DNA of 64,000 bases from Bryoerythrophyllum caledonicum (taxonomy: Eukaryota; Streptophyta; Bryopsida; Pottiales; Pottiaceae). Below are positions 11,335 to 60,700 of the stretch, in pieces. Where the stretch lies: assembly GCA_963971425.1 (NCBI GenBank), contig OZ020515.1, positions 8,014,291 through 8,078,290 of the forward strand, read 5' to 3'. Under the pieces are notes generated by a model that searched no databases, had not been told where the DNA came from, and saw nothing but the letters and a program-made list of their open reading frames with translations. How positions within the stretch are numbered: the stretch's first letter is position 1; every line of letters begins with the position of its first letter. The translations under genes were made by a program, and so were the position numbers.

Positions 11335-12129
11335 CTTTGTAAAAGTTACAGGATTTTGAATTTCATATGGAGAGAGCAGGCGCATCGGGCAAGTTTATAA
11401 ACTTTTGCTAGAACACTCTATCAAATGTGAGATTTTCAATACTATCAAGTAATATTATTTCCTTTCATCTTGTCCTAAAATGTTTCTTGTCTTTAGTACA
11501 AAACAGCACATTAAACCCAAGTCAAACATTTTCACATATTGTCACACATTGTTGGGCAAGGTACCAATACGACTTCTTCTTTTCCACATAAAACTTTGGG
11601 GTCTTCATATTTTTTTAATTACAAGGTCTAAGTCAATTACCATTATGCTAAGCATGATTTTATTTCCTTTCACTCCAATTTTTAGAGGTAGAAAAGGGAT
11701 GTAGCATATTCAAAACAATGTGGCAAGTAGTGGAGGTTCAAAAATTGCCAATTCACGTTATATTTTTTTGTGAACTAAATATGTCATAGAACGAGAATCT
11801 TAACGGTCAATAAGATGGTTTACACCAAAGCTTGAAGATAAAAAAAAATAGATAGTGCAAAAGTTGGACATCAAGTGAAGTCAAAGTTTGTTGATCCACT
11901 CAACGCAATGAAGAAAATGAATTGTTTTCTCTGCTTCAAACACTATTATCTTTCAATCCGTGCAGTCAAAGCTTATGAAAATTTTGAGGACATTACCTAG
12001 TAAGTCTTAATGGTAATCCTATGGTTAGATGTAGAAATAAATAAAAAATTGTTTCCCTCCTTACTCATTGCACTAGGAGGAGCAATTTTGAAGTGTTTTT
12101 TGTGTGAAAAGGCATTGGGCCTTTAGAGG
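11335..12129. mobile_element. TTAA-flanked element, family F1, left-truncated copy
   Basis: Shares the F1 interior found also at 26.7, 37.2, 50.5, 52.9, 57.3, 58.3 and 59.8 kb: a block with 'cacattgttgggcaaggtacc', a 'gaatatgct/agcatattc' block, 'cttcaaacactat', 'tccgtgcggtcaaag' and 'ccttactcattgcactag'. The right end reads GGGCCTTTAGAGG followed by TTAA (12130-12133). The left end is replaced by unrelated AT-rich sequence, so the boundary is approximate. No coding capacity. Confidence 0.7.
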
Positions 12130-12533
12130 TTAATCCCTCCGGATCCTGACTATTTCATACCAAAAATACTGCCAATTTTAGTGTAAAGGGCGGAAAAGGA
12201 AATTCATAATTTTTTAAAATTTCAATCAATAAGATCTTGATCTAGATTCATAAAATCACATGCTTACAAAATCTCATAAACTTGATAAAAAAAATCCAAA
12301 AGTATTAAAATACAGTATATGGAGATCCGTTTACATTGCTTTTTTTTAAAAAAACCGTGGCTCAAAAAATAAGTCCAAAATTATCCTACATGCCTTGAAA
12401 TAACTTGAAACGCTTCTAAAAACACCAAATTCCATTCACAAGAAGTGCAAGATGGTAATCGTGCATATCGTAATGGAAAATGAATAAATTGTGCTTTACT
12501 AAAAGCCAAAAAATTGGTGTTTCACGTGTTTAA

Positions 12534-13299
12534 CCCTTTCATGACCACGCAACTTTTTTTGGTCTCTAGACCGGTTAAACAACATTTCGCATGAAAATTG
12601 TGAGGAAGTAGATTTTGAACTACAAAGTTCAAATTTGCACATACATTGTACATTTTTTAATAATTGAATCATGACATGGAGTTTTAGAACTCTTGGAATA
12701 TCTTAGAATACATTACTACATACACCAATTACACTTAAATTCAATAAATACCTACAAATACACTGCCACATACTAATTTGTATTTCATACACAAGGAAAA
12801 TGATGTTGGTCTAAAACTTTGATTAAAATTTCTTCCTACGAGACTCTCCAATGTTTTTGTGAATGTTAATCTCCCTATTCAGTTACGAAACTTTTTATTT
12901 TATTTGTATGAGTTTTGGAATATCTTCATACACAATCAAGAAAACAATGAATGAAAATTCATCAAAAAGGATGCATCATCATGTGTTGTATGTAAATGCA
13001 AAGCTATAAATATGTGTAGTGCACGTCTTAACCCTCCTCCATAAACAGTGTGAATTTTCTTGCAAGATAACATTGATTGGCAAAGTTATACACCCTTAAG
13101 CATCCACAATTTTCACTACCAAATTATATAAATTGACTTCAAAAAATTATAACCATTGGAAGTTGTGCAAAGTTTCCCCAAAGTTCAGATCATGGGTTAG
13201 GTTCAACATTCTAGGGCTAGATATTTAAATTAGAATTTCTATTTCCATGAAAAGCAACGCAAATTTTAAGATTGTGGGAAAAGTTCCTGGGCACTAAAG
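12534..13299. mobile_element. TTAA-type element, family F2, inverted relative to the 36.4-kb copy
   Basis: Begins CCCTTTCATGACCACG after TTAA (12530-12533) and ends near GGCACTAAAG. The interior, read on the - strand, follows the element at 36355-37150 (for example 'ccatgatctgaactttgggg' against 'ccatgatctaaactttgggg'). The right TTAA is no longer intact, so the right boundary is approximate. No ORF of note. Confidence 0.6.
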
Positions 13300-13426
13300 A
13301 TGCTCTTTACCAAACTCTAATGGCCAGTAGTTTCCATGGATACTAGTGGCCACACAGCCACATAGTAAGCAGCCAATTAGATCAATGGATGTCAAATTCG
13401 TATCTGTATCTGATACCTGATTCACA

Positions 13427-13523
13427 TACAAAATATGGGGTGCTTCCACCTACAAATTATGGGGTGCTTGCGCATACAAAATATGGCCTGCTTTCATCTA
13501 CAAAAATATGGGATGCTTCTAAC
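13427..13523. repeat. 24-bp tandem repeat, four copies
   Basis: Four head-to-tail units of 24-25 bp, consensus tacaaaatatggggtgctt plus five variable bases (13427, 13451, 13475, 13499). The period is a multiple of three and the short frame over it would read as an octapeptide repeat (TKYGVLPP-like), but the frame is only 60 codons and has no other support. Confidence 0.75.
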
Positions 13524-14207: not shown

Positions 14208-14211
14208 TTAA

Positions 14212-16562: not shown

Positions 16563-17255
16563 AGAGGCACCCAATTCCGATCACTTAAGCCAGTTGGGAA
16601 CTCAAATGACATTGTACGTCAAAAACATTCATGTAGGAAGATGTGGAATTAGGAATGAAACTCAACAAATATTTTTTTCAAATTTAATCTCAAAGATTTG
16701 CGATTGATGTAGAATATTTAGAAGCCCAAAAACCACCGGAGCCCATAATTAAACTCTTGAGTAGGTGAGATTTGGTGCCCTCCTTTGCCCAATGCCAACA
16801 AGTGAGAGTGAGTAAAGAGAGAAGACATGCCATGGATAATGGATCACCTTATTGACCCTGGTCGAGCGGTGCACCAAACCTCAGCCTTGGGTAGGTCCAT
16901 TTTTCTGGCCCTACCCGATTTAGGGTTCTAGAGGTTTTTTTTGGTTTTTTTTTTTTACCTCTCGACCGGGGTAAATAGGCAAATCCATGGATAACCAACT
17001 CATGAAGGTACCCAATGCCGATCGGCCTTGTTCGACTTTCGAGGCAAAGCCACCAATGAGAGCTTAATTGAGGTGGAGCAACCCAAAATTGCACACTTCA
17101 TGACCCAATGCCAATAATGAGTGGAGTTTTCAGATTTTGAGTTATCGATTTTGGGTCGCTTCATGCACCATTTCATGCATTTACCATTTTCATGCACCAT
17201 TCCATGCATACTCTACCGGTCGGAATTGGGTGGCCGATCGGAATTGGGTGCCTCT
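16563..17255. mobile_element. MITE family M3, copy 1, carrying a nested insertion
   Basis: Inverted ends AGAGGCACCCAATTCCGATC (left) and GATCGGAATTGGGTGCCTCT (right), perfect over 20 bp; the match may extend about 6 bp outward (taaagc / acctta). A second copy at 47927-48451 matches along its length. The right end also carries a subterminal duplicate of the end sequence (ggtcggaattgggtgg near 17218). No ORF. I could not settle the target duplication. Confidence 0.8.
16839..16984. mobile_element. 146-bp insertion inside M3 copy 1, 9-bp target duplication
   Basis: Flanked by ccatggata on both sides (16830-16838 and 16985-16993). The other M3 copy has the uninterrupted site with one ccatggata (about 48190-48198), so the insertion is proven. 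The ends are imperfect inverted repeats (accctggtcgagcggt against accccggtcgagaggt). A 9-bp duplication fits a Mutator-like MITE. Confidence 0.85.
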
Positions 17256-25870: not shown

Positions 25871-25874
25871 TTAA

Positions 25875-26692
25875 CCCCTAAAGTCGAAAGCCCTCAAAAC
25901 TGCCAAAAACCCTCAAAACTGCCCTCTCTCAATGCAAGGTGAAAATTTTTAACTTTTGACAAATTTTCAAGTATAAAACCGTAAGATCTAGTACCTAACT
26001 TGTACATGTACATGCATACCGAATCTTAGATTCAAATTCCTCACCATTTGTGAGATCGTAATGTTCAAAGTTGAAAAAAAAGATTTTTTCCTTGTTGTAG
26101 AATGGAAAACTAATGTTTTGGGGCCCAAAAAAACCATTTTTGAAAGGAAATTTGACATGAGGCTCTTCAAATTCTTGTTCCTATGTGAGTAAGGAATATG
26201 TCCATATAATTTTTACCCTCATAGGACCTACAAAACCTAAAGAAATGCTTAATTTTTCACATGGAGGTATCCTGAAATACAAATACAAATGCCCATTTTC
26301 AACAATTAAAAAGGCATGTAAAAAATTATCGGATAGAAAATCCAAACGGTGAGATCATGCTTTACTACCACTTTTACATGTACGCAAAAACGAAATCGAA
26401 AAAAAGTAAAATCTCAATTTTTGGTGAATTTTTGAAGTTACTGCGATCTAATTGATTTTGGGCAGATTTTGAGAATAAATGAGCATATACCGCAGTTTTG
26501 GGCAGATTTCAGCATGCCCTAACAGTGTTTTCAAAGTATGAGGAATTTTGAAGCATGAATGGTGTCATTTTAAAGGTATGGGAAAACTCTACAACCTGAA
26601 AAAAGTTGTAACTTCATACGATTTAAATTTAGTAACTGAGAGCCTGGCCAGAGTCAAATCGACCACATTCTCGTCGATTTCGACTTTAGGGG
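25875..26692. mobile_element. TTAA-flanked element, family F6, 818 bp, intact ends
   Basis: Inverted ends CCCCTAAAGTCGAAA / TTTCGACTTTAGGGG with TTAA outside both (25871-25874 and 26693-26696). Interior differs from F1 and has no convincing ORF. Its right TTAA is also the left TTAA of the next element. Confidence 0.85.
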
Positions 26693-26696
26693 TTAA

Positions 26697-27626
26697 CCCC
26701 TAAAAACCCAATCCAATTTTCCTCAAGAAACACTCCAAACCTACCACTACCAAAAAGTGGCAAGAATATTTAATTTTGAAGTAAAATTCTGGTCATTTAA
26801 CCTTAGGATCTCAAACTAGATATCTATATAAAGTCACCATATTTGTAAGGCTAAAATCCACCACACGGATTGAGAGATTATCGTGTTTGAAATTTAAAAA
26901 ATGGCTCATTCTTTTCCCTGCATTAAGTGGATCAGCAGGCTTTAACTTCACTTGGTATCAAATTTTTGCACTACATAAGGTCTAAATTTTTTACAATTGT
27001 GTTTAATATGATGTTAGTTGCCTACACACCAATTTTTAGGCATAGAAAGGGAGTGTAGCATATTCAAAACACTTGTGCAAGAAGCGGATGTTGAATTTTT
27101 TGGGAAAGTTTCTATTTCACGAATTATTTTTTTGTGAACTCAATATACTTTAGAATGATAATCTAAACGATTGATAAGAAGGTTTTCACCACATGCTGTG
27201 GTCAAAAAAATAAAAAGTGGAAAATTTGAAGATCTCTAGGTTTTATGTAGAAATAATGTTTTTTTTACCCCCTTTCCCGAAATGTGTGAAAATGTTTGAC
27301 ATGAGTAAAAATGCTCTTTTTACACTAAAGACTAGAATTTTTTTTTAAATCTTAAAATAAGGTATTATTCTTTATATGTACAAAAATCTCAATGTCAATA
27401 GAAACTTTTAGCAAACTGCCCGAACTTCCTGGACTCCCCATATTGACCTTTAAATGGTGATAACTTTTGTATCATGAATTCAAATAAAATTATAAAAATA
27501 TCCCTACGAAGCTCTTACAAGGGACAATCTAGTCTAAAATTTTTGTAAGACTGTGATTTTTTTCGAATTTTAGGTACCTGCCCAAAATCCAAAATGTACC
27601 CTGTTGGTACACTTGGGCTTTTAGGG
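26697..27626. mobile_element. TTAA-flanked element, family F1, reverse orientation, 930 bp
   Basis: Left end CCCCTAAAAACCC after TTAA (26693-26696); right end read inward is CCCTAAAAGCCC, with a decayed ATAA at 27627-27630. The F1 landmarks occur on the - strand in reverse order. No ORF. Confidence 0.75.
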
Positions 27627-29100
27627 ATAAACTCCTAAAGGACCGTCATAATTTTACACCAAAAACATTTCAAAGTCACTGAATTTAGTGTAATGAGTAT
27701 GAAAGAAAACAAATCTTTTTATTTCCAATTTTTATGATAAGATCTCAACTAACCCCTAAAATTCCTTGACAATTTCACACCAAAACCTTTATCAAACTAC
27801 CTCTCTAAGATGCACAATTGCAAGACTAATTGAAACAAAATTTTACTACTTTCAACCATAGGATCCTCAACTTAACTGCTACAAGGTGACACTCAAAAAA
27901 ATTCATAAACTTTGACCATACGGATTGTAAGATACATGCATTTGAAAAGTGTAGTGTGGTTTCCTCTTCCGGGCTGGAACAGGGTCAACATACTTTGACT
28001 CAAGATATTTGCATACTTTTCCATTACACATTGCATAAAATTTATGGTTATATGTTCTACCTTGTGTTAGGTCATTGCACACAAATAATCACAAGTATTG
28101 GAGGTCTTTTGGATAAAGAAAAAAAATTGCAATGGCAAAGATATAGAACCTAGCCAATTTCTTAGGAAAATAAGATTATTCTCTAAATAGAAAAATATGT
28201 GTGGATCTAAAATCCGAATGGTGGATAGAAGTATCATGCATTATTCCATCAAGAGAAAAAAAAAATCATGAAAAATGAAACCTTAATATCTATGCGTTTT
28301 CAAGTAAAAACGACGAAGGTTGCCAAGAACTTTCCTTCATTGCTACCCACCACCAAATAGTACACTCCAGATGGTTTTTACATCAATTTAACCATTAAGG
28401 ATTTTCTTGATGTTTTGGACTCTTGACAGTAAAATTTGGTCAAAAAAGTTGATAAAATAGTTGATTGAGAATTTGTAAAATGGTGAGGAAAAAATTAGTT
28501 ACTCACAATTGATTATGATCCACATAATTTTCTTTTTCACACATAAAAAGAAATGATGTTATTGGTAGGACAAAGACGTTGAAGGCTTCAAAATACATTG
28601 TAACATATTATGGTTCCATTCTTATGTAAATAGTGTACTTGTATATGAAATCTATATATTTCCCATATTGTTTTTGTATACAAAATACTCTATCTAGTAT
28701 TTATATCGTTTTTGTATATGAAATACTTTAAATGCAAATCATATCAAGTTTAACTTATACAAATACTATATAACATTTTTATGTACACTATATCGTATTT
28801 TAGAATATATATTTATAATATAAAGTTTTTTCCATATAAAATATGTGTAAGATTTTAGATATATCACAATCATATCAATTTTATATAAAATTTGTATCAA
28901 AAGTCAAAACACATAAATTTCATATTGCAAATTTCTGATATGAATTCGAGGGGTATCAAGATGATATCGTTTTCAGTTAGATTTTATACACGCTCTGTAT
29001 GATTATCACATGCAAGTTGTATATGGTTTTTCTCATATAAAGAATATATATTTTTTACATTACAGCGAGGGTCTGGGATTTTCCTGATGAAAGCCTCACA
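27627..29100. other. Gene-free; fragments of TTAA-type elements and AT-rich sequence
   Basis: 27631-27960 starts CTCCTAAAGGACC and has reversed F1 landmarks ('ctttgaccatacggattgtaag'), a fragment of another copy. 28560-28930 is A/T-rich with repeated 'tttttgtata.gaaata' words. No gene seen. Confidence 0.4.
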
Positions 29101-32800: not shown

Positions 32801-34271
32801 AATTTTTTTCTTGAAGTACAATTTATTACTCTTAACGTTCAAATTACTAATACTCTATTGCAAAAAAATCACTATAAGACCAAAAAATTTAGAGAAAACG
32901 TTGTAAGACTCATTAAAATATATGGTTATTATTTTCAATTGTAGGAATTATAAGTTCGCTACTACATTGAGAGTAGATTTCTAAAATTATGTATACTTTG
33001 ATTTTATTTTTGTAAAGTACATGCAATTAAAGAATATATTATAGGTTATTTTCCATCCAATACTTGATATTGTTATCAAAGTTTTCCATGGTATAGTTTC
33101 ATTCTAAGTATATGCTGGAATTTCCGGCCACCATTTTTGTTCAATGAAAAACCTATGTAACTAAACAATGATGTAACTAAACAAACTATATACACACTAG
33201 GATTTTTTGTTGTTCAATTTCTTTAATGGAAAGTTTTATCCAGCCCTTTTTTCCCGTCGATATGATGGTGAAGGCAAAAATGAAAAACCCCCGGTGAAAA
33301 GCCCTTGGTAAAAAAAGAGGTCCAAAAAAAACCACATTGCACTGGACGTTCACTACGCCTTAGAGAGGAGGCGAGGTAACGTGGAGTGGTGGGCCTCCCG
33401 GAGGTGACGCTCTATGATGATGGGCAAGTGGCAGTTGCCTCAACGCTAATTTTCAAGGCGAGCCCCTGGCGTTTTTCACCTCTGCAACCCGGCAGGTGCA
33501 CTCATTCGTCAATTTCACTCACAGGAAGTAGTCGTTCATCGCCTAGCAATATTGTTGCGGATCTCGTGAATTCATTGCCTGCTAGCAAGACACTTCTCTA
33601 TGGGCAAACACCACCTCTAACTCTTATGCAGTTGGTCCGTCGCCTAGGTTTGCAAATTTATTTCCTTCCTCCATGGTTTGCCACCCCAGCTTGTAGATCT
33701 AGCGCAGTTATTGCCTGCACTTTTATTACTGAGATTTGGCAAGATGGCGTCGTTGCTCTTGGAGATTGGACTGTACTATGAGCCTAGACGAGCGTTGCGT
33801 TTAGTAGTAATGCTTGTCATTTCAATTTGGCAATGTAGAATAGTAATGCATGTGATTTCAATAGCAATGAGATCTAGATGGTTTGAAGGTCATGAGATGA
33901 GATGGTGAATGTAGTTCTTTGTGCTTGAATTGGTGGAGATTTTTGAAGCGTTCACTTTGTTCTTGTTTTGAATTGGGCATCTCAAGTACTAGCGGATCTG
34001 AAGTCGTTTCTTTCATGAAGTCAATGGAGCACGTAGCGGATGTGGAGTACATCGTGGCGTAACTGCTTGATTTGGAGACAAGCGCTTCAAGTGTTCATCT
34101 TAGCAATGACAAATTTTGAGACAATGATGCGCCTATGTTGTGTGTGCAACCAGAGCCCAAAGCGTCCACCCAATGCAAGGAGCTATCATTTGAAGCGGGA
34201 GATGCTACCGTGGTTTTGTTGCCTAGCCTTGAGGAATGCATGATTTTATAAAGTGAGACGCATCGACTTAA
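29865..34271. other. AT-rich gene-free stretch; GC-richer patch at 33330-34260
   Basis: 29.9-33.2 kb is very A/T-rich with no gene I can support; 31200-31450 has a short - strand frame and may be a decayed transposon fragment. 33330-34260 is GC-richer and has a 131-codon + frame (33386-33781, starting at GTG) with no recognisable domain and no splice context. It could be a captured gene fragment. Confidence 0.35.
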
Positions 34272-34556
34272 CCCTTTAAGGCCGATCGACTATATATGGG
34301 TTGATTTTGGACAAAAACCTTCTAGAAAGAGCTATAGGCTACCTCAAGGGAAAAATTGACCATGACTTAGAGGTGGAGGAAGATGGGCATCTTTTGGGAC
34401 CGTCTTCACGGCAATCGGCGCAAGCATCAACGAGCTACAGTGGTTTTTGTGAAATAAGTTTGTCATTTTTGTTCTGAAATGTAACCACTGTGTAGATGCC
34501 ATTCTGCATGATCTAAAACACTCGTAGATCTTCACAGGCCAAAAAAGCTCATCATC
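34272..34556. mobile_element. TTAA-type MITE, family F3, copy 2, right end decayed
   Basis: Starts CCCTTTAAGGCCGATCGACT after TTAA (34268-34271) and follows the 13913 copy to 'gatcttcacaggccaaaaaa', where the right terminus is lost. Confidence 0.65.
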
Positions 34557-36350
34557 ATTCATGGTGAAGCTAATTTTTGGGCTGATGATCTTTTTTGGCT
34601 CAATAGCCAAAAATTGCCCAGATTTTGAATTCCCTCGCCTAATTGCACCTGCAAAAATTTCTTCAGTGCCAAACTGCTCTTTGTTCCTACTTCATTATTG
34701 CCGAAACTATCATGTTAAGATTCGCCAACACATGCATTTTCAAATTTTTCAATGGCACCTACTTGCTTCCTATATTTTTTTTATGAAGAGCAAGACGTTT
34801 CAACTATCTTATATCTTTGAAAAGCCAAATTTGCCGCAATTGTCGCTAATGTGGAGCCACTAGGCTAAAACGTGAAATCAAAAGAAAAAAAAGTTGCTTT
34901 CATCTTTTTTTTGTTTCTTCCTTTCTTTCATTATATCATTACCATTTGTTCTACCATCACCGGATCAATCAAAACTTCTATGTAGACGATCTGAATAACA
35001 TGCATCTCATACTTTTTATCTACACACGAACAAAATTATCCACTACAAGCGGCTAAACTGGAAGATAAGAAACAACATTTAATGCCATCAAACAAAAGAT
35101 TGAAGTTACTTAAGAAGTTCCTTGGCCTTGGAAAAATGGAGCCATAGCTATAGTAACTAGTGCGGTTCAAACACAAGTTAACTATACTAGGGCCCGTGCA
35201 TTTACAACCTAGGCGTCTCCATCCTCGGCCCCATAGCATTTGGGTTCTCACTGTGTTCTAGTTGTTCCTTCAGAGGAATTTCCAATGCTAGCAAACGTTT
35301 CTAAAAAGCGGACCCCTGCACTTGCTCAAAGTTTTGAATGGTTGCTTTGTTGCATAAAACAACGTTTTTGTTGTAAATTACTTCCTCTCCGTAGTATATT
35401 TAGTGAGACTTGAGGTATTGCTTAGACTCCTCATTCTAGTAGGGTACGTTAAGCAAGATAGTTTTTCGTTTGCATGTTACATTCCGTGGTAACTCTTTTA
35501 ATTCTTTATTATTGAATTATTTCTCCTATTTTAAATAATCTTTGTAGTTGAGTACATGATCATGGCTAGCACAATACACTTGCACCCTTATGGTGGTGGA
35601 GTATAATTGAATTGTTCTCAAGATTATTTTTCTAAGAGTATGCCACTGCACACTTTCCATACATGGATCGTCCATAATTTTACAAAGTAGGACTTCTCTA
35701 TTCTTCATACTTTAATCCTTTAAAGCCTACAAGCTCACAAGGCCTAGGAAAACCTATAAGTGCAACAGATTATGTGGAACTTCATCTATACATCATATAC
35801 ATTTCATCGCGACCCAAATTCACAGAAATCATTATACTTTGCCTATCATACTCCAATGCACATTCCCACCGCATTTCATTGCACACATCCACCTAAGTTA
35901 TCTGAGTTTGCGGATCAAGCTATGATAAACTAGCGGATCCGCTATTTGCAGTTACTTCAAAAATGACCAGCTATGGATCTATAGTCCTTAAAGTGTCAAA
36001 CATGAATCAAAATTAGATGACAACCAATCAAAAGGTATGGCATGTGTATGGAATGTTAAGAGTTTAAGGACAAGAGGCTTATAGGTGTTCAGTTAAATTT
36101 GGAGTAATTTGCAAATTTGATGGACAGATTCTTCATTTCTGTATGATCCGCAGCCTAAGTTAAGTTTCTCAAATTCGTGCGCTTTTGACAGATGCTGTGA
36201 AAATGTATGCTCAAGTCTGACAAGCAAACTGTAGTGATTTTTGTAGTGAGTAGTTGCAATAAAATGTATCCACTTTGTAAATGTAGTGACTAGTTGCGAT
36301 GAAATGTAACCACTTGTGTATTCTTCCAGGCTTGGTCACCCTTGTCGTCC
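34557..36350. other. Gene-free stretch
   Basis: No supported gene. 35710-35880 resembles 48890-49035 ('cctataagtgcaacagattatg' against 'tttatgagtgcaatagaatatg'), showing an old shared repeat. Confidence 0.35.
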
Positions 36351-36354
36351 TTAA

Positions 36355-37150
36355 CCCTTTAGCACCGACGTCATGTTTCTCCAAAACCAAGAAATGTGCT
36401 GATTTTTTTCTTTGAACTAACTTTGATGGAAATATCATGCCTAATTTTAGTATTCAACCTTACAAAATTGAACTCAAACCATGATCTAAACTTTGGGGAA
36501 AATTTGCACAACATCCAACAGTTGATGGAATAGATTATAATGTTTAAAGTTACCATACATTGATAATGAAAATTGTTGACTTTGGAGGGTATACAACTTT
36601 ATCCATTGATAGATTCTTGCAAGAATTTTTGTACTTTGAATAAAAGAGGTTCACATGTGCACTAGGTTGATAGCTTTGCATTGACATATTGTATGTGAAG
36701 ATAACATTTATACATGATTATTGATGATTTTTTACCTTTGTCTACTTGATTGTAAATAGAAATGTTGCAAACTTATACGAATTAAAATAGAAGCTTTGTA
36801 TGCGATGAAAGAGATCAACAATCACAAAGCAATGAAGAATATCTTAAAGACAAATTTCAACCAAAATTTAAGACCTAAATCATTTTGCATGTGTTTGAAA
36901 AACAACATAGTATGTGGCATGATATTTTCTATATTTAAGTGTATTTGATGTATTATGTGTTGTGTCCTTGGCTTTTCCATGAGTTCTATAACTCCAAATC
37001 AATGATCATAATCTAATTTTTGTGGAGTTCATGTAATGTGTGGGAATATCTGAACTTCACATTTCACAACCTAATTCCTCATGGATTTTATGCAAATTGA
37101 GTTTTTAACAACTCCAGAGTCCCATTTTGGGTCTCCTAGGCACTAAATGG
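36355..37150. mobile_element. TTAA-flanked element, family F2, about 796 bp
   Basis: Left end CCCTTTAGCACC after TTAA (36351-36354); right end CCATTTAGTGCC read inward, before TTAA (37151-37154), itself followed by AGGGTTAA. A reversed copy lies at 12534 and a terminal fragment at 52750-52828. Confidence 0.7.
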
Positions 37151-38085
37151 TTAAAGGGTTAATTTCCACGTGTCGCTCTTAACTCCTAAGAGCCCAAGTG
37201 TACGTGGGGCGTACGTAATGGATTTTGGGCAGGTTCCTACAATTAAAAAAAAAACATTTAAAAAAAAATCTTGTGCTAGATTGTGCCTAATAAGAGCTCC
37301 ACGGAGATATTTTTATTGTTATTTTTGGATTCATGGTGTAAAAGTTAGTACCACTCAAAGATAGAAATGGGGGCTTTGGGCAATTCCAAAATTTTGCTAG
37401 AAGTCTCTATTGACATTGAGATTTCCCATTCATGTAGAGAATATTACTTTCTTTGAATGTGTCAAAAAAATTCTAGTCTTTAGTGTAAAAAAAAAAATTT
37501 AACACGTTTTTACACGTTTTTACACATTTATGGCAAGCAGGGAAAAAGCTTCATCTTTTTTACATAAAACCTAGAGATCTTCATATTTTTCACTTTTTAT
37601 TTTTTCTACAACAATATGTGGTGTAACCCTTTTTATTGACTATTTAGATTATCATTCTAAAACATATTCAATTCTCAAAAAATAAATCGTGATTTGACAA
37701 TTTTTGAACCTCCACTCCTTGCACACTTGTTTTGAATATGCTACATCCCTTCTCTACCTCTAAAATTTTTTGTATACGGAACTAACATCATGCTCAACAC
37801 AATGGTAAAAGATTTAGACCTTGTGTAGTGCAAAAATTTAATACCAAGTGAAGTCAAAGTTTGCTGATACACTCAACGCAAGGAAGAAAATGAACCATTT
37901 TCTTGACTTCAAACACTACGATCTTTCAATCCGTGGAGTCAAAGTATATGAAATTTTGTGAGTATGTTATTTAGTAAGTCTTTATGGAGATCCTACGGTC
38001 AGAAGGATAAATATAAGGTTTTGTTTCCTTCCTTACTCATTGCACTAGAATCAACAATTTTGAAGTGTTTTTGATGTGAAATCAT

Positions 38086-44350: not shown

Positions 44351-44520
44351 TGTGAAGAATGACACTCTGATGAGTGTGTTCTGATTAAGAGAATTGTACT
44401 GAGCAAAGAAGCTCAATATATACAGGTTGAGTAGAGGCGACTGTACAACAGTGAGGCGGTCCAATGGGAACGAAGGATGATACAGTGGTAATGAACAGAT
44501 ACAGACAGAGAATACTAACA
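44351..44520 (-). repeat. Copia 5' LTR (right in window), 170 bp
   Basis: Pairs with the left LTR at the same length, about six differences; followed inward on the - strand by the tRNA-iMet-like primer site. Confidence 0.93.
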
Positions 44521-44545
44521 ATCATCACGGGCTTTCAGGGGTTAA

Positions 44546-45141: not shown

Positions 45142-46962
<1,821 letters not shown>

Positions 46963-46979
<17 letters not shown>

Positions 46980-47916: not shown

Positions 47917-47926
47917 CCTCTAAGGT

Positions 47927-48451
47927 AGAGGCACTCAATTCTAATCACTTAGGCTAGTTCGAGGCTCAAATGACATTGTATGTCATAAACATTTATGTAG
48001 GAAGATGCAGAATTAGGAATGAATTCAACAAATATTTTTTCAAATTTAATCACAAAGATTTGGAATTGATATAGAATTTAAAAGCCCATAAACCACCGGA
48101 GCCCATAATCAAAGTGTGGAGTAGGTGAGATTTGGTGCCCTCCTTCACCTAATGCCAATCAGTGAGAGTGAGTAAAAAGAGAGAAGACATGCCATGGATA
48201 ACCAACTCATGGAGGGTACCCAATACCGATCGGCCTTGTTCGACTTTCGAGGCAATGCCACCAATGAGAGCTCAATTGAGCTGGAGCAACCCAAAATTGC
48301 ACACATCAAGATCCAATGCCGATAATGACTGGTGTTTTCAGATTTTGAGTTATTGGTTTTGGGTCACTTCATGCACCATTTCAAGCATTTGCCATTTTCA
48401 TGCATACTCTAATGATCGAAATTGGGTGGCCAATCGGAATTGGGTGCCTTT
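47927..48451. mobile_element. MITE family M3, copy 2
   Basis: Ends AGAGGCACTCAATTCTAATC and the complementary GGAATTGGGTGCCTTT. Follows copy 1 (16563) along its length but lacks the 146-bp insertion. It is the empty-site reference for that insertion (about 48190-48198). Confidence 0.8.
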
Positions 48452-49040
48452 ATCTTATTTCAAAAGAATTATTTTTCTTTGACAGAGCGATTCGGACACA
48501 ATGGGTATCACCTATGCATTATAAGGTAGCACCTTGTCATTACATGGATAATCACTTGGACAAAAACCTTATATTTTCCGAAAAATCTAACAAGTTACTC
48601 TTCAATTTGAATTAATTATGTATAAATGCAACCACAGCGAAGGGTACTCTAAATTTTATGTTAAGTGTAGGCACACAATATGGTTCATAAATGCTATAAG
48701 TTGTTATTCTCAATGCATATTTTTACCAACCATGCTCACAATGATCACCCTCTTTAAATTGTACTTTCGGTAAAAATCTTCATCAAAAGTAAAAAGTTGT
48801 AGAGCTTTCAAATCATGAACTACCACTACACTAAACATAAAATTTAGTGTACTGTAGAAGAGGAAAGAGAGGGTGAACTATAGGTCATGTTAACCTTTTA
48901 TCTTTTAACATCTAAGTGGACTATGAGGCCTCAGGAGAATTTATGAGTGCAATAGAATATGCACAACATCATTTGCATAGTGCATACATTTCATTGCAAC
49001 TCTACTTCACGAAAATCACTATAGTTTGTCAATGCCTGCA
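48452..49040. other. AT-rich gene-free stretch
   Basis: Contains a short palindrome of M6 end sequence (48832-48852, actacactaaacataaaa then tttagtgta) and a repeat shared with 35.7 kb. No gene. Confidence 0.4.
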
Positions 49041-49044
49041 TTAA

Positions 49045-49852
49045 CCCCTAAAGGACCAAAGTCCCCTCCGAGGGCATTTTGAGTTTGAGTAAGGTACCAC
49101 ATTCTCAATTCTAGGCATTATTTTCTGAGATTTTTTAATTGAATAGACAACTTTTGATTAGTTTTGCGTAGACACAAATTTCGTTGAATTCCAACTTACG
49201 GTTCAAAAGTTACAATTTATTTTCACTTATATATACAAATAGTGCAGCAGTTTAGTGTGACATATCACAAATACTGTCACTAAACTTTAATAACTTCTAA
49301 ATTCAGTAGAAATTCGAGTTTTTGTCCATTTAAAAGAAAGAAAATGTCCTCATGGGAAGGAAATTGAGATCTTTGCATCTACCATACAAATTTGTGAATT
49401 TCAAAAATTTGAGAAGGATATGATATATGCAAAATATAAAGTGTATTGATACTTCTCAGCACATAGTTGCATTGCAGGATTGTTTAGGACATCTTATACA
49501 CCTCTTCTACTTCTAAAATTTAATGTACATGTGCCTAACATGATCCTTTTCAAGTTAACATAATAAATTCTCGGCCCGTAGTGCAAAAAGTTGCCACAGA
49601 AGGTGGTTGACGTTTGTTGAAGGTGTTTAGTATGCCTCAGAAAGAGATTATGTCTCACTTCAAAGAGTGATATCTTTCAATATGTGCGGTCAAATTTACC
49701 AAAATTTTCACCACACACTCTCATACAACTCTAGTACAAGATCCTACTGTTTAATTTTCAGAAAAAATATTTTGTATCATTTCGTGTTGAATGCGCTGAA
49801 AATGGCACTTTTGGAGTGATTTTGAGGGGAAAATGTCTTGGTCCTTTAGGGG
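49045..49852. mobile_element. TTAA-flanked element, F1-related (F7), 808 bp, intact ends
   Basis: Ends CCCCTAAAGGACCAA / TTGGTCCTTTAGGGG, perfect over 15 bp, with TTAA at 49041-49044 and 49853-49856. Interior is distantly F1-like. Good type example of the terminus. Confidence 0.9.
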
Positions 49853-50010
49853 TTAATGGAGATCAAAGAGATGCATAACCTAGAAAGCTCTCGCGGAGCT
49901 CTAAGTGTGTTTTCAAGACGGCGACATCAATGGCTCATCATTGGAAAAGTTACAACACCTAGAGCACCAAAATCGGCCCTCCCAAGTCTTTGCAGGCCTT
50001 CACAGGTTAA

Positions 50011-50242
50011 CCCTCAAACGATCCAATGACTCATGGAGAGCGTATATATATTCACGTATTTTATTCTATAAAAAACAAAAAATTGTACAAAATTTAGAGA
50101 GACCAAATAAAATTATGTTAGTTGAAGAATCTTCAATCCAAAGGTGTATGTCTTTTTAAATTTTAATACATTTTTTGTATTATATAGAGTAAAATACGTG
50201 ATTGTATGTACGGTTTCCATGGGTCACTGGGTCGTTTAAGGG
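50011..50242. mobile_element. TTAA-flanked MITE, family F5, 232 bp
   Basis: Ends CCCTCAAACGATCCAATGA and the inverse CACTGGGTCGTTTAAGGG, imperfect, with TTAA at 50007-50010 and 50243-50246. No ORF. Confidence 0.8.
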
Positions 50243-50459
50243 TTAAACGGCCCCATGTGTCGTTGTGGTCATGTATTCTACTTGTATGGTGTTGTATTGA
50301 ACATGATAAGATTCATATATTGAAATGAATCCCAAATGAAAGATGTTAATTGAAGAATCTTAAATCCAAAGGTGTATGTCTTCCTAAATTCAAATACATT
50401 TTCTATGTTCTAAAGAGTAGAGTACGTGGCCATATCTTTGGTCTCCATGGGTCATTCAA

Positions 50460-51915
50460 CCCCCAAATTACAAAGAATTCCCTCGGGAGACAATTGAAGG
50501 TTTGGACAGGTTCTTACCGTGTCAATTTATAACATTCTTTTTTAAAATATATTTATTGTAGATGGACAATACTAAAAGCTTTGTGTGAGTCATTTTTTTC
50601 CTAAATCCAATATTTAATGAAAAAATTATAGGGTTTTGAAGTTCAAATGGGGAGAGCGGGCACTTTGGGCAACTCCAAAAACTTTTGCTAGAACACTTTA
50701 TCAAATGTGAGATTTTCAAAACTAGCAAGTTATATTATTTCCTTTCACACATTGTCAAAAAGAATATCTTGTCTTTAGTATTAAAAAAAAAGCATACTAA
50801 TCCAAGTCAAACATATTCACACATCATTGGGCATGGTACCAAAAAGTCTTCTTCCTTTCCACATAAAACTTAGAGATCTTCAAATTTTTTTTCCCACAGC
50901 ATTATGTGGTGTAAAACTTCTTACAAATAATTCGGATTCTCATTCTAAAACATATTAAGTTCACAAAACAATTAAACGTGAATTGAAATTTTTGAACCCC
51001 CACTCCTTGCACAATTCTTTTGAATATGCTACACCCCTTCTCTACCTCTCAAAATTGGTGTGTAAGGAACTAACATCATGTTCAATACAATGGTAGAGGA
51101 TTTAGACCTTGTGTAGTGCAAAAATTTGACACCAAGTGAAGTCAAAGTTTGTTGATCCACTAAACACAAGGAAGAAAATGAACCATTTCCCCTACTTCAA
51201 ACACTATAATCTTTCAATCCGTGCGGTCAAAGTTTATAAAATTTTGTGAGTATGTTATTTTGTAAGTCTCAATTGAGATCCTACGGTTGAAACTAGAAAT
51301 TAAAAGTTTTTTTTCCTTCCTTACTCATTTTTTTCCTTTCCTTCCTTACTCCCCCTATAACATGATATAGGTCATTGGCCCTACAGTGAATGGAAAAGAA
51401 ACTAAAATTCATTGCATCCCAAGTGATTTTTGCGGATGACAAGCACTTCCAAACTCTTTGCTACAACAATACAACAATCCAATATATGAGATTTTTTAAA
51501 CACGTAAGTAGCATGATCATCTTTGAAATTTTCAAAAAAAATGTTGTTCTACATTGTAGAAATTTTACTGTAAGAAGTGTCAAAAACGTTTCATCTTGGG
51601 AACAAAGTGCAAGAAGAAGAAATAATCATTCCCACATGATAATTAGAAATCTTGGTTTTTCTACTTCAAAAGGATGCAAGAACCTTTGTAATTGTAATCT
51701 ATTATAAGATGTCTTTATTAAAAATGTGTTTTGGAAATATTTGAACCTCCCTTCTTTGCAAAATTTAGACCTTGCATAATGCAAAAACTTGATACCAAGT
51801 GAAGTCAAAGACTATGGATCCTCTAAATGCAAGGTACTAGAAAAGAACTCATTTCTCTTCACTTCAAATACTACAACCTTTCAATATATGCAATCAAAAC
51901 TCATGACGATTTTCA
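50460..51915. mobile_element. TTAA-type family F1, one truncated copy and one fragment
   Basis: 50460 to about 51330 is a forward F1 copy without clean ends. 51700-51915 repeats part of the same landmarks ('tgaacctcccttctttgc', 'gataccaagtgaagtcaaag') and is a second, more decayed piece. Confidence 0.6.
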
Positions 51916-52749
51916 ATTACGTTGAAATAAGTTGAAATTCCAATCTTAACAACTAATATTGGTAATTTGGTAGACCAGAGAGAAATGTACATGTGAGTTG
52001 AATGATAGAGTTTTCCTCAAAGTACCTAGTATGGCAACCTTGGATTAGATTGTGCATCCGTGGTTTTATTAATTGGCCTAGATGTGGCCTCCTGAAATCT
52101 AGGATCCAAAAAGGTTGGATATCCAGGTGATGGTCTAGCCAGATTTAGGATGCAGTCATGAATGGAAGAGGCTATATTAAGATGTAAAAATCATGCACAT
52201 GTGCATGTCGAACCTATGTTTAGAAGCCTAGGTGGAGCTACATATCGTTGTAGTACTATTCAAGGAATGTCAACCTGTATTTTATGAAATTTCTCACCTT
52301 CTAAATATTTCCATTTCTAAATCTCACCCTTTTTTTGTGATTAGAATAGAACACAAGGTTCTCAAAAGGCGCTCCAACCGGTCTTTTGGCCTGACACAAG
52401 GTGGCCACCCTCTAATAATTGGACTTTAGAAAAACTCTAATGTCTTGTAAAATCTAACCCTTGTAGATGTATCCTTTGTCAATTCACTCATCCGAAGTGA
52501 TATCTACCTTGACAAATTTGGAACTTGTTATAAAAGTGTCACACACTTTTCTAGAGGTGGACAAAACATGGCCTCTATTTTAATTTTGAAGGGGCCCTTA
52601 TTTTTACAATGGTGGAGCCTCCAAGGACAAGTTGAGACTGCATGCCCCAAATTTGACCCAAAAGAAGTCCACAAAAAAATATGGACTCCCCAACACAAGA
52701 ACGCTAGAAGAATGACCCCATTCCATCAACCGTTGGATGTTGTTGCCTA
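51916..52749. other. Gene-free stretch with an old repeat
   Basis: 52556-52745 is a diverged relative of 17390-17620. I see nothing else supportable. Confidence 0.35.
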
Positions 52750-52828
52750 ATTCCTCATGGATTTCATGCAAACTCAGTTTTAGCACCTCCAGAGTCCCAT
52801 TTCGGGCTTCCTGGGCGTTAAAGGGTTA
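52750..52828. repeat. Terminal fragment of a family F2 element
   Basis: Matches the last ~85 bp of 36355-37162 ('cctcatggatttcatgcaaa', 'tccagagtcccatttcggg') and ends in ttaaagggttaa. Confidence 0.7.
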
Positions 52829-52919
52829 AGCCAAAAATAAGAGTCGGGTTTCATGTGAGCTCATTCCCATGGAATTACCAATGAGTAGTAGTAGTAGTAA
52901 GAACTCCAATCCCTTTTAA

Positions 52920-53840
52920 CCCCTAAAGGACCAAATCTCCTTCGGGAGGTTTCTAATTTTGGGCAGGTTTCTAAAATTTGAAAAAATATCTTTTTTCTCT
53001 GATTTTTTTTCTAGATTGCCTCTGATAAGAGCTTTAAGGAGATATTTTTATTTAATTTTTTGGATTTGTGGTTTGAAAGTTGGTACCACTTAAAGCCAAA
53101 AGTGGGGACTCCGGGCACCTCCAAAATTTTTGACAAAAGTTTCTATTGACATTGAGGATTTTCACGCATATAAAGAATATTTATTTCTTTAGATATTTTC
53201 AAAAAAAATTCTTGTCTTTAGTGTAAAAAGGCATTTTATTCCAAGTCAAACATTTTCACACATTGTCGGGCAAAGGGGGGAAAAAATTCATCTTTTCTAC
53301 ATAAAACCTAGAGATCTTCATATTTTTCACTTTTTATTTTTTCAACAAAAATATGTGGTGAAAACCTTCTTCTTGACCGTTTGGATTATCATTCAAATAC
53401 ATTCGTAGTTCACAAAAAAATAAAACGTGAAATGGCAATTTTTGAACCTCCACTCCTTACACACTTGTTTTGAATATGCTACACCCCTTTTTTACCTCTA
53501 AAAATTGGTGTGTTGGAAAATAACATCATGCTTAAGACAATGGTAAAAGATTTAGACCTTGTACATTGCAAAAATTTGATACAAAGTGAAGTCAAAGTCT
53601 GCTGATCTACTCAACGCAGGGAAGAAAATGAACCATTGTTTTGACTTTAAACACTAGAATCTATCAATCCGTGTGGTGGATTGCAACCAAAATTTAAAGG
53701 CATGTTTATGTAGAAGTCTTTTTTAAGATCTTACGATTCAAAATTCAAAATTCACTTTGAAATGCGATTTTCATGTCTCTTTTTGGCAGTGGCACTTTTG
53801 GATTGGTTTTAGAGCAAAATTGGTCATGGTCCTTTAGGGA
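52920..53840. mobile_element. TTAA-flanked element, family F1, 921 bp, both ends present
   Basis: Left CCCCTAAAGGACCA after TTAA (52916-52919), right TGGTCCTTTAGGGA before TTAA (53841-53844). Full set of F1 landmarks in forward order. This is the best complete F1 copy in the window. Confidence 0.9.
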
Positions 53841-53844
53841 TTAA

Positions 53845-55248: not shown

Positions 55249-55252
55249 TTAA

Positions 55253-55895
55253 CCTCTAAGGACCAAGAGTCCCAAGGTGATCTTTTGCAAATCTTGGACA
55301 ACTTTCGATAATTGCAATTCATATTTCCAAATCTCTGAGGTTTCAAACTTGAGAGATGCAAGAAGACAATAGCTACATGTGAATATTATTTTTAATCTCA
55401 TTGCACCTATAGAAAAAAACATGTGCCATCTTAATTTATTTTTGTTAAAGGCAAGCACGTTAGCAACTTCATTAACTTTTAATACGACCCTCTATCAAAT
55501 GTGAGATTTTTATACAATTGATCCAACAATATTCAATTTGAGGTTGTCGGAAAAAAAAACTTTTCATACTGTAACACTTTCACTCCAAGACAAGTCAAAG
55601 TTTTTTCACCATTTTCAAGCAAGGTGCAAAAAAAATTAATTTCTGCAATAAGATTTGAGATCTTCTTTTTTCACCATTAGATTCTTTTTCTTCAAAAAGA
55701 AGCATGAACCCTTGTTTTGACCATTTGAATTCTCAATTCTCACATGAATGCAATTATCAAAAATCAAAATTTAATTTGGGGATTTTTTACCCGCTTTTTA
55801 TTTTATTATAAAATCCTTCTTCTCTCCATTACCTCTCAAAATTGGTTTACAAATCATAATTGTACAAATCTTAGAAATTATGTAATGCAATAGCA
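55253..55895. mobile_element. TTAA-type element, diverged F1 relative, right end lost
   Basis: Starts CCTCTAAGGACCAAGAGTC after TTAA (55249-55252) and has blurred F1 landmarks ('ctctatcaaatgtgagattt', 'cattacctctcaaaattgg'). Confidence 0.6.
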
Positions 55896-57274
55896 ACTTA
55901 TTGTTTCCATATTGACCCCAAAGATGATGGATGAAGATAGATGGAGTTATCCCCTTCCTCATTCCCATAGCCACGTTCCCCTATCCATTCTAATAGCCTC
56001 ATTCAAACGCTAAATTCTAAAAGTCACTAATGAACCTTGAACCCTAACATCAAACTCCAAATCCTAAATTTTGATTCATATATCCTAACCCTAAAACTTG
56101 GTTGTTGAGGGAACGGGGAGGGAGATGACTCCGCATTCAACTCTGACCACCCCTAGTCCCTTAGGGGGGCACAAGGGGGTCATTCTACCCTGTCCATTGA
56201 AGAGGTAGCAAATTTTTGAGGGTCATATACAAATTACAATCATGTGGTGGAACATAGTTTCCCCACATGAAAAATGACCCCATGCAATTAAGATGGGGCC
56301 CACCTCGGGAAACTCCCAACGAAGGGGTCAATTTGGCCTGGGCCATCGAAACTGGGTTCATTGTTGATAAATCCTGTGAAACTCTTATCAGGAAAGAACC
56401 AAAGGACAGGGATTTCTTGGATGGATAGATTTGTTCCTCCATGATGATGTGGGATATTCTCCAGGCTCTATACTGAATTGGGAAGGCAGTTTCCTGTTTC
56501 ACAAGTCTAGTTACCCTGGAAGGCAAGGCTGGAAGTGGTGATTCTCAATCTCAATCTCATGAGTAGCCAAAACCAGTTCTGGCAAATGCATGTAACTTAC
56601 TTTTTTTCTTCTTTTTTTCTAGGTTGGCACAAAAAAACAAAAAGAGTTTGAATTGCAAAAAAAAAACAGGGAACAAATGCATGTCACTTAAACTACAATA
56701 ATTGGAAATTTACATCCAATCAGCAAGTGACACACACTTGCTTGAAAATGAATAGCCAATCAAATTTGACATGCATGTGCTTGACAAAAGTTAGTGTGGG
56801 TGATCCACATCAATTGTGAATCTACACTATATTCAATGTTTGGTGTAGTTGTTGGATAAGAAAGGTACAGATTTTGATAGGTGGCTGAGCAGCAAATTCA
56901 GAACCTGGCTTTGAATATCCCTTACATACGGATACACACACATATTATGGAGAAGATAGCACATGTCTCTCTTGATGAGTTCATCAGCTGGCCATGTACG
57001 TATATCAAAGTGATGAGGAAGAATATGCTGGATGTCTCCAAGCAGACCAGGGAGCCCGGCTTTGATGAAATGAGCCTGTGTTCAGGCAGTTTTTGTGGTT
57101 TCATGGACGGGCTGCCACGTCCCACTTTTTGTTAGGGTACCCATTCAGTCTTAGCATGAAAGCAAGGGAAGTAATAAGTTTTTGTTTTAGTGGGATCAGC
57201 ATTGCACGGATACCTTGGGAGCAGACAATTCTGTTCAGGTTTGGACCTCAATTGTTATATGTTTTAACACATAA
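55896..57274. other. Gene-free; M5-like GC-rich patch and unassigned frame
   Basis: 56110-56345 is GC-rich and resembles the M5 MITE ('gggcccacctcggg', 'aaggggtcaattt'). 56881-57135 has an 84-codon + frame of normal protein composition (opening codon GTG) that I cannot assign. The rest is AT-rich. Confidence 0.35.
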
Positions 57275-58160
57275 AATTGTTGGTTCTAGTGCAATGTGTA
57301 AGGAAGGAAATAAAACCTTATGCTTATTCTTCTGACCGTGGGATCTCCATTAAGACTTACTAAGTAATATACTCACAATATTTCATACACTTTGACCGCA
57401 CGGATTAAAAGATTATAGTGTTTGAAGTCAAGAAAATAGTTAATTTCCTTCCTTGCATTGAGTGGATTGGCAGACTTTGACTTCACTTGGTATCAAATTT
57501 TTGTCTTACATATTGTCTAAATCTCTTACCATTTTGTTAAGCATGATGTTAGTTCCCTACACACCAAGTTTTAGAGGTAGAGAAGGGGTGCAGCATATTC
57601 AAAACAAAAGTGCAAGGAGTGGAGGTTCCAAAAATGTCAATTCACGAAGAAAAAAATTCAAAGAATTTAATATGTTTTAGAATGATAATCCAAATGGTCA
57701 ATGAGAAGGTTTACACCACATATTGCTGTTGAAAAAATAAAAAGTGAAAAATATGAAGATCTCTATGTTTTATGTACAAAAGATGAAGTTGTATTCCCCA
57801 CTTGCCCGAAATGTGTAATAATGTTTGACTTGAGTTAAAATGTTTTTTTACACTAAAGACAAGAATTATTTTTATGACATTTTCAAAGAAGGTAATATTC
57901 TCTACATGTATGGAAAATCTCAATGTCAATAGAGACTTCTAGCAAAAGTTTGGAGGTGCCCGAAGTCCCCATTTCTAACTTTGAGTGGTACTCACTTTCA
58001 AACCATGAATCCAAAAATAATAATAAAAGTAACTCCATGGAGCTCTTATCAGGGGCAATCTAGTATAAAAGCTTCCAAAACAAAAGACTTTTTTTTTGAA
58101 TATTAGGAACTTGCCCGAAATCAAAATCGTCCCCCAAAGGGACACTCGGTCCTTTAGGGG
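57275..58160. mobile_element. TTAA-type element, family F1, reverse orientation
   Basis: F1 landmarks in reverse ('gaccgcacggattaaaagatt', 'gtttgacttgagttaaaatg'). The right end reads GGTCCTTTAGGGG followed by TAAA. The left end is not preserved. Confidence 0.7.
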
Positions 58161-58339
58161 TAAAGGTCAACGTTGCATATGATTTGCACTTGAGTGGAAT
58201 TATTATATATATATATACCTTTTTTATTTTATTTTTTTCTTTCACAAATCACAAGTGAGTTGAGATGCAATGATCTTAGGGATTTGACCCTTGAATTAAG
58301 CTCCAAGCAATTATTAAATACACATATGTAAAACCTCAA

Positions 58340-59553
58340 CCCGTCATTTTCAAGAGTTCCCTTGGGGGACTCTTGAAGGTTTAGGCACATCCCTACTATG
58401 TCAATTCATATCATTTTTTTTTTCTGAATTTCTTTATTGTAGATGGACAGTACTAAATTCTTTGTGCGAGTCTAATTTTTTCCTAAATCTGACATAATAT
58501 AAAATAGTTATAGGGTCTTGAAGTTCAAATGGAGAGAGTGGACACGTCGGGCAACTCCAAAAACTTTTGCTAGGACACTCTACTAAATGTGAGATTTTCG
58601 ATACTATCAAATAATATCATTTCCTTTCATATTGTCGAAAACAAACTCTTGTCTTTAATGAAAGTAGCATATTAATCCCGGTCAAACATTTTCACACATT
58701 GTCGCACATTGGCGGACAAGGTACCAAAACAACTTCTTCTTTCCCACATAAAGCTTAGAGATCTTCATGTGTTTTAACTTTAAGTGTTTTCCCACCGTTG
58801 TAAACCTTCTTATTGACCATTCAAATTCTCATTCTAAGTCATTTTTAAGTTCACAAGAAAATATACTGGGAATTGAAATTTTTGAACCTCCACTCCTTGC
58901 ACAATCTTTTAAAAATGCTAAACCCTTTCTTTATCTCTCCAAATTGGTGTAAACATTTTCACACATTGTTGCACATTGGCGGACAAGGTACCAAAAAAAC
59001 TTCTTCTTTTTCACATAAAACTTTGAGATCATCATATTTCTTACTTTTTACTTTTTTTGCAGCATTATGTGGTGTAAACCTTCTTATTGATCATTTGAAT
59101 CCTCATTCTAAAACAAACTAAGTTCGCAAAAAAATATAATGCAAATTGACAATTTCTGTACCACCACTCTTTGCACAATTTTTTTGATTGTGCTACATCC
59201 TTTCTCTTCCTCTAAAAATTGGAGTACAAGGAACTAATATCATGCTCAACATGATGGTAATGGTTTTAGACCTTGTGTAGTGCAAAGATTTGACATTCAG
59301 TGAAGTCAAAATTTGCTGATCCATTAAACATAGGCAAGAAAATGAACTCTTTTCTCCATTTTAAACACGATAATCTTTCTATCTGTGCGGTCAAAGTTTA
59401 TGAAATCTTGTGAGTATGTTACTTAATAAGTCTTAATTGAGATACTATGATTAAAACTAAATATAAGACTTCTGTTTTTCTTCCTTACTCATTGCACTAA
59501 AAAGAGTAGTTTTGAAGTGTTTTTGGTGTGAAATTGTCAAAGAAATTTAGGGG
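58340..59553. mobile_element. TTAA-type element, family F1, with internal duplication
   Basis: Forward F1 copy enlarged by an internal direct duplication of about 265 bp: the block from 'aaacattttcacacattgt' to 'cacataaa' occurs at about 58683 and again at about 58948. The right end reads TTTAGGGG before a decayed TTGA; the left end is unclear. Confidence 0.65.
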
Positions 59554-59801
59554 TTGAGATGTGGCTTATCCATATGAGAATCTCTTCCTAGGTTCTTCAA
59601 ATCAACACTTCGCAAATCCACAAGCATGGAATAATGGAACAAAATCAAACACTGAAGTCTGGTCCTTACTTGACAGCTTTCACATGTTTCCCTGTCCCTC
59701 TTATGTTAGCTTTGATCATGTTTAAAGAATAAAATGAAACTGTCTAATTCACCCAAAAGAGACTAGGCCTAATGTTTAGTGTAGTGGTTCTATATGATTA
59801 T

Positions 59802-60700
59802 CCCTAAAGGACCAAGTGTCATAAAATGATATTTTGAAGGTTCTATCAGGTTCCTATGATGTCAATATCCAATATTCCTCTTTGAAATCTTAATTATAGA
59901 TGCGCATTACTAAAACATGAGTGGGAAAACAAATTAGTCCTAAATCCGACATTTAATGAAAAAGTTATAGGGTTTTGAATTTCAAATGGGGAGAGCAAGC
60001 ACCTCGGGCACCTCCTAAAACCTTTGCTAGGACATTCTATTGAATGCGAGATTTCCAATGCTAGCATAAAATATTATTTCCTTTCAAATTGTCAAACAAA
60101 AGTTCTTGTCTTTAGTTTAAAATAGCATATGAACCAAGTCAAACATTTTCACACATTATCACACATTGTCAGGCAAGGTACCAAAACAAATACTTATTTT
60201 CCACATAAAACTTAAAGATCTTCATTTTTTTTTCTTTATAGTATTCCCACAAAAATATGTGGTGTAAACCTTCTTATTGACCGTTCGGATTATCAATCTA
60301 TAACATATCAAGTTCACAAAAAATTAAAAAGTGAATCGGCAATTTTAGAACCTCCACTCATTGAACAATCTTTTGAATATGCTACATCCCTCCTCTACCT
60401 CTAAAAATTGGTGTATAAATTATTAACATCATGATTAACACAATGGTAATGGATTTAGACCTTAGGTAGTGCAAATATATGACACCAAGCAAAGTCAAAG
60501 TCTGCTAATCTACTCAACATAGTGAAGAAAATGCACGGTTTTCACTACTTCAAACACTATAATCTGTTAATCCGTGCGGTGAAATTTTGGTGAGGACGTC
60601 AATTAATGAGTCTTGATTGAGATCCTACGGTTAGAGGTAGAAATAGAAGCTTTTGTTTTCCCCCTTACTCATTGCACTGGAACAAGTAGTTTTGAAGTGC
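59802..60700. mobile_element. TTAA-type element, family F1, right end truncated
   Basis: Left end CCCTAAAGGACCAAGTGTC after TTAT (59798-59801). F1 landmarks run in order to about 60700, then unrelated sequence. Fragments of M6-type ends lie on both sides (59772 and 60735). Confidence 0.7.

Follow-up and report, generated by a model that had tools for sequence, protein, structure and literature searches.

We describe a swarm of repeated elements in the moss Bryoerythrophyllum caledonicum, found in a stretch of 64,000 nucleotides (contig OZ020515.1, positions 8,014,291 to 8,078,290 of the forward strand; hereafter the window), which have CCC-starting inverted ends and TTAA on either side. The ends, the TTAA flanks, the family structure, the TTAAs shared by neighbouring elements and one copy nested at a TTAA of its own family were all observed directly. 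The elements are probably old non-autonomous (gene-less) DNA transposons that one or several piggyBac-type transposases moved in trans. PiggyBac is a superfamily best known from, and studied mainly in, animals; as judged from the sequence, their membership of piggyBac is unproven.

The five elements named in the original prediction are all present in the window sequence, and their locations were right; its coordinates, however, begin after the TTAA and leave it out. With the flanking TTAAs included, they extend as given in Table 1 for C1, B, G, H1 and A2. Their inverted ends start with CCC, except for one of the ten, which starts with TCC. To compare these pairs with chance we used a pair scan, which collected TTAA pairs at distances of 80–1500 bp in which 11 or more of 13 inverted bases matched. 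The window gave 6 rows (the five elements and one cross-pair), whereas 100 dinucleotide shuffles gave a mean of 0.11 and a maximum of 1, and a chance origin of the pairs of TTAA and terminal inverted repeat (TIR) was thus rejected. The same scan with the 15 other palindromic 4-mers returned 0–3 rows each and, over all 256 4-mers, TGTT alone was higher than TTAA, with 9 rows; these rows we suppose to come from a 19-bp tandem array at 29588–29778. A weaker test, simply counting TTAACCC together with GGGTTAA, showed a mild excess (17 against about 9.3 expected, with a shuffle maximum of 16).

TTAA is found on either side of all seven two-ended elements, above chance in the pair scan. The four bases just outside the element (the slot) were examined in a table of 28 aligned end rows with 25 distinct slots, from which the left end of A6 (TCAACCCGTC at 58336) was left out as uncertain. 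The slot reads T, T, A and A in 26, 25, 25 and 28 of the 28 rows, respectively, with an information of 1.18–1.73 bits, compared with 0.51 bits or less, that is near random, at the 12 outer positions; it is exactly TTAA in 21 rows. A TTAACCC search had located the ends of B, C, D, G and H, and their rows are therefore biased; the 15 rows of family A were placed through alignment of the ends: 8 of these 15 have an exact TTAA, a word that occurs at 357 positions of the 64,000. Some slots are common to two elements, namely TTAA for A1/B and for A8/A12, and TTTA for A1/A10. Moreover, beyond the TTAA a direct repeat of 2–10 bp was found in none of the seven two-ended elements and a 1-bp repeat in two; a longer duplication outside TTAA was therefore rejected by this flank comparison, and the earlier statement that the flanks do not match outside TTAA held.

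It has been reported that piggyBac elements have TIRs of 12–19 bp, a CC[C/T]T motif and TTAA flanks (PMC2872659). Four of the seven two-ended elements fall within this range of TIR length (14 bp in C1, 15 bp in B and G, 14 bp with one mismatch in A2), and the ends of C, D and H, which read CCCT, match the motif literally. The D3 end and the left TIR of the coral element AmiPB2 are identical in 13 of 13 bases; this is support rather than proof, since six of the 13 bases are the common CCCTTT start. Throughout the end table the first base is C or T in 28/28 rows, and base 5 is T and base 7 is A in 26/28 rows each. Hence the TTAA flanks and the piggyBac-like ends originally proposed are supported by the pair scan, the end table and the published motif.

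The families were drawn from self-BLAST and from a nucleotide profile search of the window, the profile being built from seven of the eight long A copies, which match it by construction. The profile search led to 22 copies, intact, broken or nested, covering about 13.8 kb, or 21.6% of the window, with approximate fragment boundaries behind this figure. Family A is dominant, with a length of about 0.92 kb, eight long copies (A1–A8) and several fragments. There are two copies of C, one complete and two partial copies of D, and one foldback and one decayed copy of H; C2, D2 and the right ends of several A copies were too decayed for scoring. The left 175 bp and the right 409 bp of G match the A profile (29.6 and 82.4 bits), and G was also grouped with A in repeat family D18, whereas the match of B was weak (23.6 bits, E 1.2e-7). 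On these sequence matches, G is related to A in diverged form and B only weakly, and C, D and H stand apart, giving about four or five groups in total. The claim of at least six families was therefore too high and overstated their independence, because the profile ties G, and weakly B, to A. The Kimura two-parameter distance to the majority sequence ranged from 0.13 to 0.26 in six A copies and was 0.41 in A8, where it is inflated because the middle segment of A8 (11605–11887) is in reverse orientation compared with the other A copies. These distances mark the copies as old. Further C-type fragments lie at 48917–49043, adjoining G, and at 35713–35846. H1 (50011–50242) folds into a single long hairpin of −108.2 kcal/mol (z −17.6) and is a possible source of small RNAs.

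A Copia retrotransposon at 38086–44520 (38081–44525 including its ATCAT duplication) sits within A3; its long terminal repeats of 170 bp differ at 6/170 positions, ATCAT is present at both sides, and the A3 right end and its TTAA resume past it at 44526–44545. With this Copia and its ATCAT duplication taken into account, A3 is complete, and it joins A2 as an A copy that has TTAA at each end. A half empty site was observed for A11, which lies in A10 where the A family reads AAGTC-TTAA-TTGAGATC; this internal TTAA is retained in 3/8 long A copies (A5, A6 and A8), the other five reading otherwise, and A10 itself reads TTAG beside TTGAGATC. The left flank of G is a reversed C-type fragment, which matches C1 as far as the TTAA, where the fragment stops (score 46, against a maximum of 24 in 200 shuffles); the right flank of G gave no match to C (score 15, shuffle maximum 25).

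Several observations weigh against the piggyBac-type explanation. In seven of the 28 rows the slot is not TTAA (TTTA and TAAA, from one shared stretch, TTTA, TCAA, TCAA, ATTA and CTAA), and that reading ATTA carries two mismatches. The TIRs of A3 (13 bp with 3 mismatches) and D1 (only 7 perfect terminal bases) agree less well with the published length, H1 is a long foldback, and the ends of A, B and G are mostly CCCCT, which is not a literal CC[C/T]T. The empty sites with a single TTAA, proposed as a check in the original prediction, gave a mixed result within the window: at the A11 junction TTAA stands in three of eight paralogues, but it is missing from the paralogue at two of the three junctions inside other copies. 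At the G junction C1 has TCGA and C2 CCGA, although two CpG-type changes could convert TCGA to TTAA, and A4 adjoins H2 at a position where H1 is without TTAA. The far side of the insertion was found in the window at none of the three half empty sites, so that deletion or decay is possible at the G and A4 junctions. Eight joined-flank queries (in which the ends used for A3 and A1 lay 1 and 3 bases away from those finally adopted) revealed no complete empty site within the window. The match across the join obtained with the H1 query (49857–50168, 82.6%) was discarded as its own locus, because H2 resembles H1. Furthermore, no piggyBac transposase was found by Pfam comparison among the annotated genes of the window and 33 of its 88 extra open reading frames (ORFs) of at least 75 aa, all stop-free frames, in line with the earlier statement that none is in the window. 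The Pfam matches among the compared ORFs were few, and all under the Pfam cut-offs; the domain of a piggyBac transposase is DDE_Tnp_1_7.

Other types of transposon have to be weighed against this background. TTAA is its own reverse complement, and consequently a TA duplication at a TTAA target by elements with true ends ACCC...GGGT leaves identical flanks, so that the flanks alone do not separate TA duplication at TTAA targets from TTAA duplication. Tc1/mariner-like elements with a strong TTAA target preference would thus leave formally the same flanks; we consider them unlikely, as the outer two letters of the slot, positions 1 and 4 (26 and 28 of 28), show no less conservation than the inner two, positions 2 and 3 (25 and 25 of 28), and the literature passages, in which no search was aimed at one, contained no Tc1/mariner family with ends of this kind. 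Another TTAA-duplicating group, for instance a Sola subgroup, or an undescribed superfamily, would fit with the fact that the transposase was not seen among the ORFs compared and that the A/B/G ends (CCCCTAAAG) depart from the letter of the piggyBac motif as published. Against it, the ends of C, D and H carry this motif and the ends are similar across the groups; such an origin is very unlikely.

The window also holds a PIF/Harbinger-like element at 6993–10728, which is flanked by TTA left and right and has 36-bp inverted ends (92%), ORFs with DDE_Tnp_4 within 7175–8755 and a weak Myb/SANT-like ORF on the opposite strand. Having such a TIR transposon at the same locus, it could be asked whether the swarm is of the PIF/Harbinger (Tourist-like) kind, with a TTA/TAA duplication, perhaps driven by this very element. 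This is highly improbable: the resident Harbinger has TTA flanks and unrelated ends (GGCCCTCTTTACACTAGAGG...), and a 3-bp duplication with TTAACCC...GGGTTAA requires asymmetric ends, whereas in the seven two-ended elements symmetric ends leave TTAA on either side. Kolobok shares the TTAA duplication, but it has termini 5'-RR and YY-3', and the plants listed as its hosts, a chlorophyte and rhodophytes, are algae (PMC9587614). The termini here are 5'-CCC...GGG-3', all the 28 rows starting with C or T, and a Kolobok origin is hardly credible. Therefore, of the two superfamilies to which the original prediction had pointed, piggyBac is the probable one, and Kolobok is disfavoured on its termini.

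If the elements are of the piggyBac type, their transposase would excise an element after binding to its inverted ends, which start with CCC, and would place it at a TTAA, so that this word then stands on either side; from the present data we infer that movement was by cut and paste, that TTAA is what is truly duplicated and that the transposase was of this type. The related ends around different interiors (A/B/G, C, D and H) suggest that several families, derived by internal deletion or of foldback type, were served by one transposase or by related ones. In addition, the TTAA next to an existing element would be a new target, and this would explain the copies that abut with one shared TTAA. 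That the moss lineage has, or had, its own long-lived piggyBac-type transposases, and that a diverse radiation of non-autonomous families driven by them forms a sizeable part of the genome, largely missed by the present annotation of plant repeats, is a more tentative and rather doubtful extension.

Among the closest known systems are the coral CMITEs and AmiPB elements (PMC2872659), which likewise have TTAA on both sides and CCCTTT or CCCC starts, with about 14 bp of each end displayed, form several families, occur as tandem copies, and include the AmiPB2 left TIR CCCTTTAACGCCC found at the D3 end. The coral CMITEs are of about 100 bp with a conserved interior, whereas the moss elements are of 0.24–0.93 kb and their interiors differ, and ORF-bearing piggyBac elements were isolated from the coral, whereas no transposase was found here in the ORFs compared. 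As for plants, PiggyBac is one of the seven superfamilies of angiosperm miniature inverted-repeat transposable elements (MITEs) in a review (PMC10004981), the assembly of the fern Ceratopteris (C-fern) has 1,230 PiggyBac copies, for 122 kb in total (PMC6890710), and a survey lists PiggyBac for every taxonomic group studied (PMC4438587). The angiosperm and fern elements share with ours a plant host and the superfamily label, and were compared by label only; the 122 kb of Ceratopteris refer to its whole list, against 13.8 kb in one 64-kb window here. Moreover, a moth piggyBac transposes in rice cells (PMC4309413), hence the mechanism is permitted by plant cells. The view that such elements are rare in land plants is softened by the angiosperm list and the fern copies, although the latter add up to no more than 122 kb. 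Thus, since piggyBac-type elements are listed for plants, the kind is already known; what is unusual is how densely the elements lie here and how many different interiors their similar ends enclose. No paper describing this TTAA swarm was present among the matches listed from the openly licensed PMC literature. By term search, two fern genome papers (PMC12868710, PMC9477723) had no mention of piggyBac in the main text, PMC10619864 matched only as 'piggybacking', and of four papers on plant transposable elements or MITEs three were without piggyBac, the fourth having both the superfamily and the engineering tool. If the picture is true genome-wide, it would show TTAA-specific transposition native to a plant and would give grounds for a second look at unassigned plant repeats.

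Table 1. Positions of the TTAA-flanked elements and their fragments in the window.
Element	Position	Strand	Features
A8	11310..12133	+	A copy, middle inverted, left end lost, right TTAA common with A12
A12	12130..12283	-	A right-end fragment; TTAA common with A8
D2, diverged D copy	12530..13261	-	TTAACCCTTTC at 12530; opposite end decayed
C1	13909..14211	+	303 bp, TTAA both sides, 14-bp perfect TIR CCCTTTAAGGCCAA
B	25871..26696	+	826 bp, 15-bp TIR CCCCTAAAGTCGAAA, TTAA both sides, right TTAA common with A1
A1	26693..27631	-	A copy; one end TTAA, other TTTA
A10	27628..27752	-	A right-end fragment, broken by A11
A11	27749..28320	-	A copy within A10 at family's internal TTAA; slot CTAA, one mismatch
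C2, second C copy	34268..34562	+	Left TTAA+CCCTTTAAGGCC intact, right end decayed
D1	36351..37162	+	812 bp, CCCTTTA ends (7 bp perfect, beyond diverged), TTAA both sides
A3 main part	37179..38085	+	Left TTAA; divided by Copia element
A3 tail past Copia	44521..44545	+	Duplicated ATCAT, then right TIR, TTAA
G	49041..49856	+	816 bp, 15-bp TIR CCCCTAAAGGACCAA, TTAA both sides; C-type left flank
H1	50007..50246	+	240-bp foldback, near-complete hairpin, TTAA both sides
H2, decayed H copy	50247..50456	+	Adjoins H1 and A4
A4	50456..51331	+	A copy lacking its right end; TCAA in left slot
A-family fragment	51440..51911	+	Profile search
D3	52743..52829	+	D right end, TTAA + CCCTTTAACGCCC
A2	52916..53844	+	Complete 929-bp A element, TTAA both sides
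A13	55249..55890	+	A copy, left TTAA; right part not found
A5	57267..58164	-	A copy with decayed right end; TTTA in left slot
A6	58350..59557	+	A copy, internal tandem duplication; right slot TTGA (+ strand); left end uncertain
A7	59797..60708	+	A copy with decayed right end; ATTA in left slot, two mismatches

The plant host proposed from the sequence was borne out by three matches: a serine acetyltransferase ORF matches 4n69 along its C-terminal 276 residues, a GAPDH fragment is nearest to cytosolic GAPC1, and the Harbinger of the window matches Pfam Plant_tran; 4n69 and the matched GAPC1 entry are from flowering plants. The one 18-base end pattern tried had 0 matches in viral contigs, and searches of the window for Rfam families, at the gathering threshold, and for tRNAs also gave 0. 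An open frame of 381 aa at the window edge (1–1143) had no Pfam match; by eye, it may be CPSF-A/DDB1-like.

Other repeats were observed in the same window. A 145-bp insertion at 16830–16994 lies between 10-bp repeats CCATGGATAA, and a paralogue at 48192–48201 carries the CCATGGATAA repeat once, thus representing a clean empty site for it. At 47633–47927 there is a 275-bp element with inverted ends GGCCAGGGAGAATTGACCCC and the 10-bp repeat CTCTAAGGTA on either side; this element and the 145-bp insertion are both Mutator-like by the length of the duplication. The element at 29361–29865 has ACTACACTAAACATCGC inverted ends around an array in which a 19-bp unit is repeated in tandem about 10 times and, finally, a foldback with 169-bp arms, 91% complementary, is located at 63217–63668.

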